A program made the translations under genes and the position numbers. Below are positions 30,587 through 36,783 of a DNA stretch of 40,981 nucleotides, one piece after another. Within the stretch, counting starts at the first letter, position 1, and each line of letters begins with the position of its first letter. The notes under the pieces are model-generated. The model had not been told where the DNA came from and did not search any database. It saw nothing but the letters and a program-made list of their open reading frames with translations. Origin of the DNA: a virus; the IMG/VR virus record IMGVR_UViG_3300036790_000276, positions 1-40,981 of that record; one strand, 5' to 3'.

Positions 30587-30831
30587 TCGGCCGCGCCCTC
30601 GAGGCCGTCCGCGGCCGGGGGAAGTGCCAGTGGTGCGACCCCCTCGGCTACGGCAACCTCGGGGCCCTTCCCCGGGACTGCGCGTGCGAGCGGGAGTGCG
30701 GCGCGGCGCGCTGCGGGCGACGGCCGGCGATCGACGACGACATCCACCGCGACGGCACGCCCGTCGCGCCCGGCATCGACGACGAAGTTGACCAGATGAT
30801 CCGCGACTTCAAGCGATGGGAGCGGCCGTGA
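30583..30831 (+). CDS. Small Cys-rich protein, 82 residues
   Basis: This protein starts at a GTG that overlaps the previous stop. It has CQWCDP, then CACERECGAARC, six Cys in about 35 residues, and an acidic end with DDEVDQMIRDFKRWE. A zinc-binding fold is likely. It directly precedes and overlaps the exonuclease gene. Confidence 0.55.
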   Translation: MIGRALEAVRGRGKCQWCDPLGYGNLGALPRDCACERECGAARCGRRPAIDDDIHRDGTPVAPGIDDEVDQMIRDFKRWERP

Positions 30832-31844
30832 CCGCCGTGCTAGTGCCGACCGCCAATGAGGCGGAGTGGCTGGAGGCCAGGCGCAAGGGCGTCACCGCCA
30901 GCGAGATCGCGATCCTGATGGGCCTGTCGCCCTACAGCTCGCCCTACGCCCTGTACCACCAGAAGCTCGGCATCCTGCCGCCCGAGGACGATCAGGCCGT
31001 CTTCGAGCGCGGCCGGGTGCTGGAACCGTACATCGCGGAGAAGTTCGCCGCGGCGCACCACGAGTTCGACCTGCGCGGCAACGGCCGGGAGCTGTTCGCC
31101 CACCCGGAGCGCGCTTGGCAGCTCGCGACGCCCGACCGGCTGCTCTTCGAGCGCCGGCTGTGCGCCTCTTGCGATGCGGACGTTCCGCTCGGCTGCACCT
31201 GCGAGAGCGACCTTGGAGATCCGGCCGCCGTCGCCGAGTTCAAGACCGACTCCGGCAGCGACGAGTGGGGCGAGGAAGGGACCGACGAGATCCCGGTCCA
31301 CTACCGCGCGCAGGTGCTCTGGCAGATGGACGTGATGAACGTCCGAAGGGCCTACGTCGACTGCCTCGACCCGGCCCGATGGAGAATCCGCTCGTACGTC
31401 GTCGAGCACGCGCCCTACTGCGACATCCTGACCGGCCGGCCGGGTACCGGCGAGTGCGCCGTGTGCGACGACCTACTGATGATGCGCGGTGAGGCCCGGC
31501 TGTTCCTCGACCGGGTCGACCGCGGGGAGGCGCCGGACGTCGACTGGCGGCCGGCCACCATCGGCGCGCTCAAGCGGCTGCACCCGTCCGTCACCGACGA
31601 GGACGTGTTCGTCGGCTCGCAGCTGGCCGTCCGCTACCGCGCGGCCGTCAAGAACCTCAAGCACTGGGAGAAGCGCAAGCACCTCTACGAGGCGCGGCTC
31701 CGCCAGCAGATGGGCTCCGCGCGCCGCGCATGGTCCGGCGGCGAGGTCATCGCCCGCCGCGACGTCTACGAGGTCCGCGAGCACGTCCGCAAGGCCTCGG
31801 TCACCGACAAGCTCGTCCCGGTCTACCCGAAGAAGGAATCATGA
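30828..31844 (+). CDS. YqaJ-type exonuclease (lambda Exo / RecE-like)
   Basis: This 338-residue nuclease has the YqaJ/lambda-Exo order: TASEIAILMGLSPYSSP, FERGRVLEPYIAEKF (E66), ATPDRLLF (D103), AEFKTDS (E137, K139) and HYRAQVLWQMDVM (Q162/Q166). It would degrade one strand of linear DNA to expose single strands for annealing by the RecT protein downstream. An unusual CASC...CTC cluster (C112, C115, C123, C125) between the D and ExK motifs suggests an extra zinc site. GTG start overlaps the previous gene; the next start is four bases from its stop. Confidence 0.88.
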   Translation: MTAVLVPTANEAEWLEARRKGVTASEIAILMGLSPYSSPYALYHQKLGILPPEDDQAVFERGRVLEPYIAEKFAAAHHEFDLRGNGRELFAHPERAWQLATPDRLLFERRLCASCDADVPLGCTCESDLGDPAAVAEFKTDSGSDEWGEEGTDEIPVHYRAQVLWQMDVMNVRRAYVDCLDPARWRIRSYVVEHAPYCDILTGRPGTGECAVCDDLLMMRGEARLFLDRVDRGEAPDVDWRPATIGALKRLHPSVTDEDVFVGSQLAVRYRAAVKNLKHWEKRKHLYEARLRQQMGSARRAWSGGEVIARRDVYEVREHVRKASVTDKLVPVYPKKES

Positions 31845-33025
31845 CCACCCAGACAGTGAGCAACGCCGTCGCCCAGCGCCGCGAGGACCGCACGGCGATC
31901 GACTTCATGATGTCCAAGCGCGGCCACCTGCGCACCGTGCTCCCCAGGAGCGTTGACGTCGACGCGTTCGTCGGCACCGCGGCCGGGGCGCTGTACGCGA
32001 ACAAGACGCTGATGGACTACGCGATCGGCAACGTCGACTCACTGTTCATCGCCCTCATGAAGTGCGCCCAGCTCGGCCACATGCCCGGCACCGACGAGTT
32101 CTACCTGACCCCCCGGCAGGAGAAGGGCCGCGGGAAGGTGCTCGGCATCGAGGGGTACCGGGGCGTCATCGAGCGCATGTACCGCTCCGGCGCGGTGTCC
32201 AAGGTCGTCGTCCGCGAGGTCTGCGAGAACGACTACTTCCTCTACGTCGAAGGCGAGATGGACAAGCCCGTCCACAGGTGGGGCGGCGACGGGGAAACGG
32301 GCGCCAGCTTCTTCAAGTCCAAGCCGCGCGGCGCGATGGTCGGCGCCTACGCGTACGCCGACCTGGTCACCGGGGCGACGTCCCGCGTCGTCACCCTCAC
32401 CGAGGACGACGTGCTCGCCGCGCGCGACTCCGGCGGCTACAAGGCCACCGACCCCTACACCCCGTGGAACCGGCTCGACGGCGGCCAGGCGCACCCCGAG
32501 TTCAAGGGCCGGTCGATGTGGTGGAAGACCGGCGCCAAGCGCCTCGAGCCGTGGGTGCCGACATCGGCCGAGTACCGGCGCGAGTCCCTGCGCGCCAGCG
32601 CGTCGGCCGCCGAGCACGCCGTAGCCGGACGCCAGACGCCCGAGCTGCCCGCGTCCGCACCGCCGGAGAACGTCGTCGACGCCGAGATCGTCGACGACCC
32701 AACAGACGCCGCCTCCGGGGACAACCCCCCGCCCCCCGCCCCGGAGGCGGCCCAGAACCCCGCCGAGCGGCCGCCCGCGCTCATCGCGTCCGGCCAGAAA
32801 ACCCAGATCGAGCGCGAGCAGCACCGCCTCGGCTACGGCGACAGCGAGGAGGACCTCCAGTCGTGGCTGTCGGACCTCGCCAGGCTCGCAGGGCTCGCCG
32901 CGATCGCCTCGGTCGGGGAGCTGACCCAGGCGGACGCGAAGGCCGTCATCGGCCAGCTCAAGCCGCTGGGCGACGCGCAGGACCTCATGGACCTGCTGGC
33001 CACCGGCGAGGTGCCGGGTGAATGA
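31841..33025 (+). CDS. recT: RecT single-strand annealing protein
   Basis: This 394-residue protein belongs to the RecT group: SLFIALMKCAQLGHMPGTDEFYLTPRQ, VLGIEGYRGVIERMYRSGAVSKVVVREV, a core YADLVTGATSRVVTLTEDDV and KGRSMWWKTGAKRLEPWVP. The typical core is residues 20-250; a Pro/Ala-rich acidic linker and an extra helical domain (about 330-394) extend the C-terminus. It anneals complementary single strands, working with the exonuclease just upstream in phage recombination and repair. ATG overlaps the exonuclease stop. Confidence 0.9.
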   Translation: MTTQTVSNAVAQRREDRTAIDFMMSKRGHLRTVLPRSVDVDAFVGTAAGALYANKTLMDYAIGNVDSLFIALMKCAQLGHMPGTDEFYLTPRQEKGRGKVLGIEGYRGVIERMYRSGAVSKVVVREVCENDYFLYVEGEMDKPVHRWGGDGETGASFFKSKPRGAMVGAYAYADLVTGATSRVVTLTEDDVLAARDSGGYKATDPYTPWNRLDGGQAHPEFKGRSMWWKTGAKRLEPWVPTSAEYRRESLRASASAAEHAVAGRQTPELPASAPPENVVDAEIVDDPTDAASGDNPPPPAPEAAQNPAERPPALIASGQKTQIEREQHRLGYGDSEEDLQSWLSDLARLAGLAAIASVGELTQADAKAVIGQLKPLGDAQDLMDLLATGEVPGE

Positions 33026-33251
33026 GGACTGGACCGTCGTCGACGTGCTCGCCGAGGACGGCGGCAAGCGGATCGAGATCGCGCACGCCGAGGGCAAGGT
33101 CCGCGTCGCGGTCAAGGGCGGCGGCGTCGTGCAGGCGTCGATCGTCCTGGACGGCGGCGGGCGGGACGCGTTCATGCACGCGTTCGCCGTGGCCGAGAGC
33201 CAGGCCGAGGCGTTCGCCATTGCGGCGGCCGAGGCGGTGCCAGGTGCCTGA
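33018..33251 (+). CDS. Small hypothetical protein after RecT
   Basis: This 77-residue protein starts at GTG 33018, eight bases inside the RecT end. It is rich in Val, Ala and Asp with alternating strands (WTVVDVLAEDGGKRIEIAHAEGKVRVAVKGG) and a final Ala-rich helix. It has no recognised family. The eight-base overlaps on both sides are consistent with coupled translation. Confidence 0.55.
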   Translation: MNEDWTVVDVLAEDGGKRIEIAHAEGKVRVAVKGGGVVQASIVLDGGGRDAFMHAFAVAESQAEAFAIAAAEAVPGA

Positions 33252-33606
33252 CATCACCCGCGAGCAGCTCGCCAAGGCAATCGACCGCATGCGCGAGGTG
33301 TACAGCCCCGGCGGCGCGCCGTACAAGTTCACCTCTGACATTCTCGCCCGCGAGCTGCTCGGTGTCATTGCCGACAAGTGGCCGGAGGGCGGAGGGGTGC
33401 CCGACGCCGCCCGCCCGGACTACTACGACGGCAAGGGCGGCATGCAGCCGTTCGACGTGATTGACGCGTTCGGCCTCGACTTCTACGAGGGCAACGTCGT
33501 CAAGTACCTCGTCCGCTGGCGCAAGAAGAACGGCATCGAGGACCTGCGCAAGGCGCGGACCTACCTCGCCCGGATCATCTCGCGCGCCGAGGCGACCGAT
33601 GGCTAG
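33244..33606 (+). CDS. DUF3310 protein (SaV-like)
   Basis: This 120-residue protein starts at GTG 33244. Its second half, PDYYDGKGGMQPFDVIDAFGLDFYEGNVVKYLVRWRKKNGIEDLRKARTYL, has the full DUF3310 signature (P.YY....MQP.DV...FGL.F..GN..KY..R...K...EDL.KA). DUF3310 proteins are common in phages near recombination and nucleotide genes. Their biochemical role is not settled. Confidence 0.85.
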   Translation: MPDITREQLAKAIDRMREVYSPGGAPYKFTSDILARELLGVIADKWPEGGGVPDAARPDYYDGKGGMQPFDVIDAFGLDFYEGNVVKYLVRWRKKNGIEDLRKARTYLARIISRAEATDG

Positions 33607-33745
33607 CACCGTCACCGCCGCCCGGTGTTTGCGCTGCCCCTGGACGGCCGCAGGCGACCCCGTGGCGACCGACAAGGCGGCGGACAGGCACACCGCCGTC
33701 GGGCACCCCACCGCGACCGTGACCACATGGAAGGCACCCCGTTGA
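33599..33745 (+). CDS. Small C2H2-like zinc finger protein
   Basis: This 48-residue protein overlaps the DUF3310 stop by eight bases. It has CLRCPW...H...GH (Cys10, Cys13, then His31 and His36), spacing that fits a small zinc finger. Such short CxxC/HxxxxH proteins recur in actinophage early regions. Function unknown. Confidence 0.6.
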   Translation: MASTVTAARCLRCPWTAAGDPVATDKAADRHTAVGHPTATVTTWKAPR

Positions 33746-34527
33746 GACTCGACATCCTCACCAGCGAATGGCACAAGCTGCTCAAGCCCGTGCTCCCCCA
33801 CGCGGCCACCGACAAGGAGATGACCGAGTACCGGCGCGTCCGCCTCGAGCTGGGCCACCGCGCGCTGTACGCCGTCGCGACCGACATGGCCACCCTGGCC
33901 GCCGAGCGCCTGCGGCTGGGGCCCGCCAACCGCGGCGGCGACTGGCCGCCCGTCCACGTCGAGGCCAGCGAGGCGAAGTCGTCGCTCGGCCTGCTGCCGT
34001 TCGACAAGGACACCGACCCGATGCTGCAGATCACCGTCGACCGGGCCCCCATCCCGCTCGGCCACGGCAACAGCATCGACTCCTGGGCCCTCACCGTCGA
34101 CCGGCCTGACGACGGGCTGCGGCTCGTCCTGCGCGACCGCCGCGACCCGTCCCTGGTGACCAGCCTCGACAAGTGGCGCGACCTCCTGCTGAAGGCCCTC
34201 ACGCGCGCCGGCGGCAGGTCGCTCGACGGCCTGGACCTGCGCGGCCACCTGCTCGCCCGCTGGGGCGCCGCGTCGCGCGGGACCGAGCGGCTGCGGCTCT
34301 ACACCGGGCCCAAGCCCGGCGACGCGCTGCTGATCACGGTCGAAGATCATTTCGCGGGGATCTGGGCCATCCCGCAGTACCTCGACTCGCCCGCGCAGGG
34401 GCGCGCGGAGCTGCCGTGGGCGGGCGAGCTGCTGCCCGCCGACGTCATCGACCTGCGGACGGCGAGCGGCGTCCACCGCGTCGACACGGGCAGCGGCGAG
34501 GTGTCCGAGGACGACGAGGGCGAATGA
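33742..34527 (+). CDS. DNA polymerase III sliding clamp-like protein
   Basis: This 261-residue protein starts at TTG 33742 (TTGA overlap; GGAAGG upstream), with ATG 33727 as a weaker alternative. It resembles a shortened beta clamp: RVRLELGHRALYAVATDMATLAAERL near residues 30-55, VEASEAKSSLGLLP, strands in the middle and DALLITVEDHFAGIWAIP near 205-223. Standard clamps have about 370 residues, so this is a reduced form. It may tether polymerase to phage DNA or divert host replication factors. Family assignment is by pattern only. Confidence 0.6.
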   Translation: MRLDILTSEWHKLLKPVLPHAATDKEMTEYRRVRLELGHRALYAVATDMATLAAERLRLGPANRGGDWPPVHVEASEAKSSLGLLPFDKDTDPMLQITVDRAPIPLGHGNSIDSWALTVDRPDDGLRLVLRDRRDPSLVTSLDKWRDLLLKALTRAGGRSLDGLDLRGHLLARWGAASRGTERLRLYTGPKPGDALLITVEDHFAGIWAIPQYLDSPAQGRAELPWAGELLPADVIDLRTASGVHRVDTGSGEVSEDDEGE

Positions 34528-34670
34528 CCTGGGTTCCCCGCTGGCGGAACGGCCGGCTGATCGAGGAGCCGCCCCGGTGCCTCGAGGCGGAAACCGACGA
34601 GCGGCCCGACCTGCACGGCCCGGACCCCGTCGTGTTCGGGGCCGAGCCGCGCGTGAACGGCTGGAACTAG
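34524..34670 (+). CDS. Small hypothetical protein, 48 residues
   Basis: This protein overlaps the clamp-like stop (ATGA). The sequence MTWVPRWRNGRLIEEPPRC is followed by an acidic middle and ends with VNGWN. It is polar, with two Trp in the first eight residues. No family is recognised; the overlap is the main support. Confidence 0.5.
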   Translation: MTWVPRWRNGRLIEEPPRCLEAETDERPDLHGPDPVVFGAEPRVNGWN

Positions 34671-34672
34671 CT

Positions 34673-35170
34673 GTGAGCACGCTCTTCGAGCTGAGTGTTG
34701 GCGACGTGGCCACGACGAATGACGACTGGTACACGCCCCGGTGGCTCTTCCGCGCGGCCGGGCTGGTCTTCGACGTGGATGTCTGCGCCCCGGTTGCGCC
34801 GGAGTCTCGCACCTGCCCGGCCCGTCGCTACCTGACGCCGGTCGAGGACGGGCTGAACGAGCCATGGGCAGGGCTTGTGTGGATGAACCCGCCCTACTCG
34901 CGCCCAGCGCCATGGGTGAGCCGCTGGGCGGCGCATCCCGACGGGCTGGCGCTGCTGCCCACGGCCAAATCCCTGTGGATGGGCGAGCTGTTGCGGGCCG
35001 CCGAGGAGATCGCGCTCCTGCGTGTCGATTTCGGTCGGCCGGACGGCGGGGTCACTGAGTACCCGGTGGCGATGATCCTCGCGGCCAGGGGTGCGGCGCG
35101 TGGAGCGGTGCAGCGGGTACCGGCGGCCGACAAGCACGCAGGCGGCGCGTACTTCGTGAGGCCAACATGA
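34673..35170 (+). CDS. Phage-type DNA N6-adenine methyltransferase
   Basis: This 165-residue protein has the features of the phage Dam family: DDWYTPRWLFRAAGLVFDVDVCAP (residues 17-40), CPARRYLTPVEDGLNEPW and the catalytic MNPPYSRPAPWVSRW (motif NPPY at 72-75), then LLPTAKSLWMGELL. It transfers methyl groups from S-adenosylmethionine to adenine, probably to protect phage DNA from restriction. Length is normal for this short class. Start GTG 34673. Confidence 0.86.
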   Translation: MSTLFELSVGDVATTNDDWYTPRWLFRAAGLVFDVDVCAPVAPESRTCPARRYLTPVEDGLNEPWAGLVWMNPPYSRPAPWVSRWAAHPDGLALLPTAKSLWMGELLRAAEEIALLRVDFGRPDGGVTEYPVAMILAARGAARGAVQRVPAADKHAGGAYFVRPT

Positions 35171-35391: not shown

Positions 35392-35411
35392 TCCGCCATT
35401 GTGCACGCGAC

Positions 35412-35500
35412 CCGGATCGCAACGCAAAGTCGCGATCGACATACGATACCGCGTTGCGACTGGTGAGGCGATCGGGATCGTGATTTGCGTTGCGATCCGG
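35412..35500. repeat. 17-bp perfect inverted repeat in the divergent region
   Basis: CCGGATCGCAACGCAAA at 35412-35428 is matched by its exact complement at 35484-35500 with a 55-base spacer. A further copy of GCGTTGCGA lies inside at 35451. The spacer also has TCGCGATCGA. This region between a minus-strand gene and the replication initiator is likely an operator or accessory origin element. No gene of notable length is found at 35392-35581. Confidence 0.7.
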
Positions 35501-35581
35501 ATTGGAACTAGAGTCGCCATCGAGGTTGGAACGAACCGGGGAGTCTGAAGGCAATGGGAATGAACGGAAGGGCGGCGGCGG

Positions 35582-36406
35582 GTGTCGATCAGCGTCATGA
35601 CCTGGGTGTGGAATCACTCCGGGTCCCGGCATGGCGCGCGCCTGGTGCTGCTCGCGATAGCGGACTGCGCGAGCGGCGACGGCGGGAACGCCTGGCCGAG
35701 CAACGCGGAGCTTCAGCGCAAGTCGGGGCTGGGTGAGCGCGCGGTGCAGTCCGCTATAGCTGAGCTGGGAAAACTGGGTGAGCTGGAGGTCCGCTACAAC
35801 GAGGGGCCGGGCGGCTGCAACCACTACCGCGTGATCATGGGCGACCCCCGCAATATCTGCACCCCCGCAGATATTGCACCCCCGCAGAAAATGCGGGGGT
35901 CACGCAAGCGCACTGCGAAGTCAGCGCAGGCCAGCCCGGACATCCCCGCAGAATCTGCACCCCCGCAGATTTCGCAGGAACCCCCGCAGAATCTGCACCC
36001 CACCCCCGCAGAATCTGCACCCGTAACCGTCCTTGAACCAAAAGCTAACCAACACCAGAAGACTTCGTCTTCTGGTGGGCGCGCAACGCGCATCCCAGAC
36101 GACTTCGAAGTCACGCCCGACATGGCCGACTGGGCCAGACGCGAGGTCCCGGCGCTGATCGACGCCGGGCGCGGCAAGGGCGAGACCGACCGGTTCCGTG
36201 ACTACTGGGCGTCCGAGGGCGGCCAGCGAGCCCGGAAAGTCGACTGGATCAAGACCTGGCACAACTGGATGCGCCGCGCCGACGACAACCTGGCCGGCCG
36301 GCCGCAGCGGCAAGGGGCCGCGCCGAAATCGACCACCAACGACCGCGTGCAGCAGGCGATCGAAGCCGGAAAGCGCGTGCAGGCAATGATGGACGGAGAA
36401 TCGTGA
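35582..36406 (+). CDS. Replication initiator (lambda O-like) with iterons in its gene
   Basis: This 274-residue protein has an N-terminal winged helix (residues 1-80) of the phage replisome-organiser type: MSISVMTWVWNHSGSRHGARLVLLAIAD, AWPSNAELQRKSGLGERAVQSAIAELGKLGELEV. The centre (about 88-160) is low-complexity Pro/Ala/Gln because the DNA carries seven 17-bp iterons. The C-terminal part (about 165-274) has TPDMADWARREVPALIDAGRGKG and KVDWIKTWHNWMRRA and probably contacts a helicase loader. GTG start with GGAAGG upstream. Overlaps the next gene by four bases. Confidence 0.8.
   Translation: MSISVMTWVWNHSGSRHGARLVLLAIADCASGDGGNAWPSNAELQRKSGLGERAVQSAIAELGKLGELEVRYNEGPGGCNHYRVIMGDPRNICTPADIAPPQKMRGSRKRTAKSAQASPDIPAESAPPQISQEPPQNLHPTPAESAPVTVLEPKANQHQKTSSSGGRATRIPDDFEVTPDMADWARREVPALIDAGRGKGETDRFRDYWASEGGQRARKVDWIKTWHNWMRRADDNLAGRPQRQGAAPKSTTNDRVQQAIEAGKRVQAMMDGES
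35845..36077. other. Probable replication origin: seven iterons, AT-richer segment, hairpin
   Basis: Seven 17-bp direct repeats close to CCCCCGCAGAATCTGCA lie at 35845, 35862, 35879, 35943, 35960, 35981 and 36003. The first three abut one another. Each has an inner palindrome near GCAGA-TCTGC. After the last, an AT-richer stretch (36021-36052) precedes a hairpin with 11-base arms CACCAGAAGAC and complement (36053-36077, loop TTC). Repeats, AT-rich segment and palindrome inside the initiator gene repeat the layout of lambda ori. The period is not a multiple of three, so the copies are read in different frames. Confidence 0.8.
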
Positions 36407-36783
36407 CCCCGCAGGAAACCGGAAAGCTGCTCGGCATCTGCGCGGCATTCGACAACCGGAATGTCGATGACGCCGCCGTGTTCGCCTGGTACAGCGCGAT
36501 CAAAGACCTGCCCTACTCGGAATGCGAGTCGGCGGTAATCGCCCACTACTCCGACAGCCGCGAGTGGATCATGCCGGCCGACGTGCGCACCCGCGTCAGG
36601 CGCGCGCAGCGCGATCTGGCCGAGCACAGCCGCATTCACGAGCTGCTCGACCCGGACGCCTACCGCCGCGAGGTCGAGCAGCTCGACGGCTCGTTCCTGC
36701 GCAAGCTGGAGGCCCGAGCCGGACGCGAGCTGGCGCTGAAGGCACCGCCGGTGCCGTACGCCGAGGCGGCCGAGCCGCCGTGA
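36403..36783 (+). CDS. Probable helicase loader (G39P-like)
   Basis: This 126-residue protein begins with a GTG overlapping the initiator stop. The N-terminal domain (LLGICAAFDNRNVDDAAVFAWYSAIKDLPYSECESAVIAHYSDSREWIMPADVRTRVRR) has the helical pattern seen in SPP1 G39P-type helicase loaders, including HY.DS.EW.MP. The C-terminal part is charged. Its place right after an O-like initiator suggests it brings the host DnaB helicase to the origin, as lambda P does. The assignment is probable rather than certain. Confidence 0.62.
   Translation: MTPQETGKLLGICAAFDNRNVDDAAVFAWYSAIKDLPYSECESAVIAHYSDSREWIMPADVRTRVRRAQRDLAEHSRIHELLDPDAYRREVEQLDGSFLRKLEARAGRELALKAPPVPYAEAAEPP

Follow-up and report, generated by a model that had tools for sequence, protein, structure and literature searches.

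A probable replication origin inside the gene of an HTH_36 phage initiator, with an iteron word that covaries with two residues of the recognition helix

The window, an IMG/VR virus contig of 40,981 bp that was analysed over its whole length, carries seven iterons inside the gene of its replication initiator, and this array is very probably a phage theta replication origin located within its own initiator gene, with dimer binding, opening at adjoining AACC boxes and helicase loading as the proposed steps. What the sequences show are the iterons, selection at the DNA level, the family-wide association with one type of initiator, covariation between residues and bases, the gene order and the AACC array, and the reading as an origin is drawn from these. 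We infer initiation at this site from conservation, anatomy and precedent, and likewise infer dimer binding, unwinding and helicase loading. Judged by sequence, the origin-in-initiator layout is the rule in a large family from phages of Actinomycetota, Proteobacteria and Cyanobacteria.

The initiator gene and its iteron array

The initiator gene (35582-36406, + strand) has a GTG start and encodes a protein of 274 aa that matches Pfam HTH_36 (PF13730; E 2e-11, above the cut-off) and two PHROGs families, phrog_391 ("replication initiation O-like", 2e-21) and phrog_1032 ("replication initiation protein", 8e-21), in agreement with the O-like initiator named in a preliminary description of this DNA. 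The AlphaFold2 model is composed of a winged helix (residues 1-84) and a helical C-terminal domain (residues 179-237), while residues ~90-165 form a Pro-rich linker that is predicted to be disordered and is modelled with low confidence. The iteron array is positioned in the linker stretch of the gene, with the winged helix on one side and the C-terminal domain on the other. The recognition helix covers residues 52-65 and opens with E52, R53, A54, V55 and Q56, whose codons lie at 35735-35749 (+ strand), as placed by the AlphaFold2 model and the code tests described below. A structure search with the initiator returned generic winged-helix matches only, none at E up to 0.001. No match to the DnaT-like family PF17948 was found in the window initiator, and matches in relatives were sub-threshold only (L233, 1e-4; L005, 0.006).

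A scan of the whole record for the 17-mer CCCCCGCAGnnnnTGCA with at most one mismatch located seven copies, the number given in the preliminary description, between 35845 and 36019, all on the + strand, and no further copy outside the initiator array in the 40,981-bp record. These are iteron 1 (CCCCCGCAATATCTGCA, 35845-35861), iteron 2 (CCCCCGCAGATATTGCA, 35862-35878), iteron 3 (CCCCCGCAGAAAATGCG, 35879-35895), which together with the GGGG that follows it is also a perfect inverted repeat, iteron 4 (TCCCCGCAGAATCTGCA, 35943-35959), iteron 5 (CCCCCGCAGATTTCGCA, 35960-35976), iteron 6 (CCCCCGCAGAATCTGCA, 35981-35997) and iteron 7 (36003-36019), which has the same sequence, CCCCCGCAGAATCTGCA, as iteron 6. 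Start-to-start spacings are 17, 17, 64, 17, 21 and 22 bp; the period of 17 first ascribed to the array is present in three of them and absent from the others, and 17 bp is one of two preferred spacings. At the core of the iteron is an inverted repeat, GCAGA-A-TCTGC, of the form that a dimer would be expected to recognise.

All three codon phases are used by the window iterons, and the copies at 35981, 36003 and 35845 are translated as PPQNLHP, TPAESAP and DPRNICT respectively, which bears out the earlier observation that identical copies encode different residues. When synonymous codons were shuffled with the protein kept, 0 of 5000 shuffles reached seven iterons (mean 1.1, maximum 5), and none reached the 31 repeated 12-mers of the natural gene, the shuffle maximum being 8. 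The alternative that the repeats were selected as protein, namely as a proline-rich flexible linker with the DNA repeats as a by-product, accords with the predicted disorder and proline content of this stretch. Identical DNA is nevertheless read in three phases into different peptides, the repeats are lost when codons are shuffled under a constant protein sequence, and the repeated word follows the residues of the recognition helix (below); we regard this alternative as refuted on the evidence, with next to no probability left to it. Selection on the DNA rather than on the protein, as originally proposed, is thus supported.

Iteron words and recognition-helix residues across the family

All IMG/VR contigs were scanned for the iteron DNA pattern CCCCCGCAGNNNNTGCACCCCCGCAG using no protein information. 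The scan gave 117 stretches, of which ~115 lie on the same strand and in the same frame as an ORF with an HTH_36 N-domain; the window and L004 are also counted in the underlying tallies. In bacterial genomes, this pattern was found in 23 assemblies, from Gamma-, Beta- and Alphaproteobacteria and Actinomycetota. Compared among relatives, the iterons proved to be a family-wide feature: 138 initiator genes (IMG/VR and bacterial genome matches combined) contain 739 iterons inside the gene, usually 2-9 per gene, and no iterons were found within 1.5 kb outside those 138 genes. By codon phase, the 739 copies divide into 385/255/99, and the distances most used between them are 17 bp (255) and 21-23 bp (57/113/68). 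The C-terminal parts of these initiators fall into 13 groups without a link at E 1e-4, so that the N-domain moves together with the origin as a single module that has been attached to many different C-terminal domains. An IMG/VR protein scan with the window protein alone yielded no matches, and an alignment of nine members was too divergent as a scan query; narrower alignments were successful. Two loci merit separate mention: in Pseudanabaena phage Pam5 (L007, 2501-3301) the initiator ORF with iterons lacks a gene annotation in the record, and in L040 (26-135) a foldback artefact of assembly may account for the iteron pattern, which is present on both strands near an end of the contig.

Relatives collected by protein alone, with search patterns that exclude the recognition helix, carry iterons at the same location with different words. 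The words follow helix positions 52 and 56, with E+Q associated with CCCGCA, D+Q with CCCGAA, E+R with CCGGCA and D+R with CCGGAA, and there are no exceptions among genes with a clear array. Written as CCxGYA, base Y is C in 42/42 protein-found relatives with E at position 52 and A in 13/13 with D, while base X is C in 42/42 with Q at position 56 and G in 21/21 with R; these counts cover helices that have R53 and lack an R following position 56, and the sets comprise the sequences in which the rule was noticed plus a second collection. The window itself, with E52/Q56 and seven CCCCCGCAG-type iterons, fits as expected for ERxVQ with CCCGCA. On a poorly resolved tree built with the helix columns left out, E/D changed 7 times and base C/A 7 times, Q/R 4 times and base C/G 4 times, and all independent pairs were concordant; well-supported branches only provide 4 (E/D) and 3 (Q/R) pairs, too few alone for a sign test. 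In a third, held-out scan, the iteron word was predicted correctly in 16 of 17 cases, the single miss having no repeat array, or in 13 of the 14 strictly fresh cases, given that three held-out loci, L328, L332 and L344, lie on contigs also present in the DNA-pattern set. The correct cases include RMTDRGVR with seven CCGGAA words (D+R), two D+Q initiators and one E+R initiator. De novo 6-mer counts for each helix class returned the same words, along with GGTGCA, GGTGAA and GGGGCA as the second half-site.

In the AlphaFold2 model, the recognition helix carries both code positions, E52 and Q56, at its N-terminal end, which is where winged helices usually enter the DNA major groove. The proposed mechanism predicts that dimers of the winged-helix N-domain would bind the inverted-repeat iterons, and that the recognition helix would read two bases per half-site CC-X-G-Y-A through two residues at its N-terminal end: E52 would pair with C at Y (D with A), and Q56 with a pyrimidine at X (R with G). 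The words predicted by the code are CCCCCGCAG for the wild type, CCCCCGAAG for E52D, CCCCGGCAG for Q56R and CCCCGGAAG for E52D/Q56R. The covariation gives indirect support for binding of the iterons by the initiator. VQR initiators (L286-L317, L268, L279, L386-L401 and others) carry GTGACA and VRR types TGGACA, which suggests a third code position and, for R after Q with GTGACA, a further code class; simple word counts for the association of R after Q with TGACA are confounded, and it is reported from the de novo 6-mer table only.

Where an initiator and its site share the same DNA, how the binding site can change has been hard to study, and the HTH_36 family provides hundreds of natural solutions to changing site and reader together. 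From two positions of the helix, the origin word can be called even in unseen cases, and the compatibility of origins between phages should therefore be predictable from sequence. Neither the residue code nor the AACC array was found described in the literature searched, a set with few subscription papers.

The AACC array, hairpin and neighbouring genes

The AT-richer segment of the preliminary description is real: positions 36020-36054 (+ strand) are 51% A+T, compared with 28% for the record, which ranks within the top 0.6% of 35-bp windows. This candidate unwinding element carries three AACC boxes, box 1 (GTAACCGTC, 36025-36028), box 2 (TGAACCAAAA, 36036-36039) and box 3 (CTAACCAACA, 36047-36050), all on the + strand after iteron 7 and exactly 11 bp apart; nowhere else in the record do three AACC boxes follow one another at 10-12 bp. 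Such a triplet arises in 154 of 5000 codon shuffles of the window gene; in this gene alone it is weak evidence, and its weight comes from the family. Across 215 non-redundant linkers, AACC showed the strongest excess of all 256 tetramers for pairs 11-12 bp apart (283 versus 65 in codon shuffles), and pair distances peaked at 10-12, 21-24 and 33-35 bp, corresponding to ~11.2 bp per repeat. Runs of at least two AACC boxes are present on the coding strand in 159 of the 215 linkers, whereas the opposite strand has them in 3 and the remainder of the gene in 1, and genes without such runs often have a near variant, e.g. ACATCA. The box consensus, GAACC[AG]T[CA]A (GAACCRTMA), recurs every 10-12 bp after the iterons and is used in all three codon phases; in 101 of the 126 genes in which the distance is under 60 bp, it is 19-20 bp, measured from the beginning of the last CC[CG]G[CA]A word to that of the first box.

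The position of the AACC array matches that of an unwinding element, and the assembled iteron array, in fixed register with the AACC boxes, would open the AT-richer segment. The AACC element is unchanged whether the iteron word reads GCA, GAA or GGCA. One possibility, which we raise only tentatively and rate below an even chance, is that the boxes serve sequence-specifically in unwinding or in helicase loading and have a reader that stays the same when iteron specificity changes, the DNA read probably being single-stranded or opened. If so, phages of Actinomycetota, Proteobacteria and Cyanobacteria would share in these boxes an equivalent of the sequence-specific motifs known from unwinding elements of bacteria, and together with the two-residue iteron code the boxes would constitute a modular origin grammar of variable address and constant opener. 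A constant AACC array beside a variable iteron array makes the question of what opens a phage origin directly testable.

Initiators with PTTVK- or RKTVL-type helices (L353-L384, L003) have GAACAG-type repeats at the AACC position, perhaps a variant of the second element. Relative to the AACC period of 11.2 bp, the preferred iteron spacings of 17 and 21-23 bp correspond to factors of ~1.5 and 2, a comparison between 138 iteron genes and 215 linkers that hints at one helical register for the whole origin.

The hairpin with 11-bp arms described previously is found at 36053-36077 (+ strand) as CACCAGAAGAC-TTC-GTCTTCTGGTG, with a 3-nt loop, and the region 36019-36110 has z = -3.5. As a family-wide feature it was rejected, given that arms of at least 7 are present in 17 of 155 genes versus 7.7 expected, and many of the longer ones overlap iterons. 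It recurs mainly in actinobacterial members (the window, L027, L132, L142, L247, L256 and L257), the hairpin-bearing IMG/VR loci being assigned to hosts by kinship to the window, and it may have a separate role.

The next gene (36403-36783, + strand; 126 aa) overlaps the initiator stop codon and encodes a probable helicase loader, which matches phrog_6055 (6e-17; function label unknown) and shows ~41-43% identity over 59-67% to Microbacterium phage products annotated "helicase loader". Annotations downstream of the initiator in relatives include helicase loader, DnaB-like helicase, primase/helicase and protein P. In the proposed mechanism, the C-terminal domain and the next gene product would bring in the replicative helicase.

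An array of binding sites could instead be an operator for autoregulation, at which the HTH_36 protein blocks its own transcription while replication starts elsewhere; the winged helix is indeed like that of transcription factors, and the residue-base covariation speaks for binding and not for its purpose. Operators, however, are normally positioned at promoters, whereas these arrays lie in the linker, usually in 2-9 copies, with an AT-richer AACC array at a fixed distance downstream and, as the neighbouring gene, one for a loader, helicase or primase, and the same layout is found at the accepted origins of P22 gp18, lambda O and SPP1 gp38 (PMC6316719). We consider the operator improbable and the origin the preferred reading.

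Just upstream of the initiator gene, the window encodes a RecE-like exonuclease, a RecT annealing protein, a RusA-like resolvase and a Dam-type methylase (30816-35170), followed by a perfect 17-bp inverted repeat, CCGGATCGCAACGCAAA (35412-35428 and 35484-35500), that looks operator- or promoter-like. Replication might truly start at a neighbouring element of this kind, e.g. within the intergenic stretch 35400-35560, with the array serving an auxiliary role in copy control or incompatibility. The inverted repeat at 35412-35500 would be compatible with such a start, as would the GC skew, which has no clear turning point at 36 kb, does not single out this position and is uninformative about where the origin lies. 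Against it, very diverse phages have kept both the iterons and the AACC array, which are placed as in the lambda, P22 and SPP1 origins, and we judge a start at such a neighbouring element to be very unlikely.

Comparison with known intragenic origins

The textbook case of an origin inside an initiator gene is lambda. In lambda ori (gene O) and P22 gene 18, as in the window, semi-palindromic iterons are followed by an AT-rich segment and an inverted repeat in the middle of the initiator gene (PMC7466680), and a helicase-loading or helicase gene comes next. The lambda-style layout of the preliminary description is thereby supported, as is its claim of a different ancestry. The window initiator belongs to HTH_36 (PF13730), whereas lambda O and P22 gp18 belong to Phage_rep_O (PF04492), which they match at 6e-36 and 7e-38; the window initiator gave no match to PF04492 at E up to 1, and profile comparison with the lambda O family gave a probability of 2.8%, with no sequence relationship detectable. 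By its sequence, it is filed under a different Pfam family and not under that of lambda O. The iteron period is 17 or 21-23 bp in the window family and ~20-24 bp in lambda and P22. The second element also differs, consisting of 11-bp AACC boxes in the window family, while lambda and P22 are without AACC and share the A-rich word ACAAAAGACA. Copies of ACAAAAGACA in the AT-rich segments of L010 (~1120-1160) and L327 (~2920-2955), from lambda and P22, are a possible Phage_rep_O counterpart of the AACC array. The phage L gene 18 work, as represented in its available sections, compares three phages, and those sections describe no residue-level code or AACC array.

Similar arrangements are known outside Phage_rep_O. 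In SPP1, oriL lies inside gene 38, with direct repeats and an AT-rich unwinding element within the initiator gene, and gp38, gp39 and gp40 are the initiator, a small loader and a DnaB-type helicase (PMC6316719); the likeness to the window origin is one of layout as described. In P1, oriL lies within repL, synonymous changes inside this initiator gene reduce replication, and the A/T-rich element is the part found to matter (PMC9948254). PLE RepA_N represents another initiator family, and the PLE origin is noncoding whereas the window array is intragenic. The lambda-type intragenic origin is a layout rather than a protein family, and of a kind already known; the window array very probably works like lambda ori.
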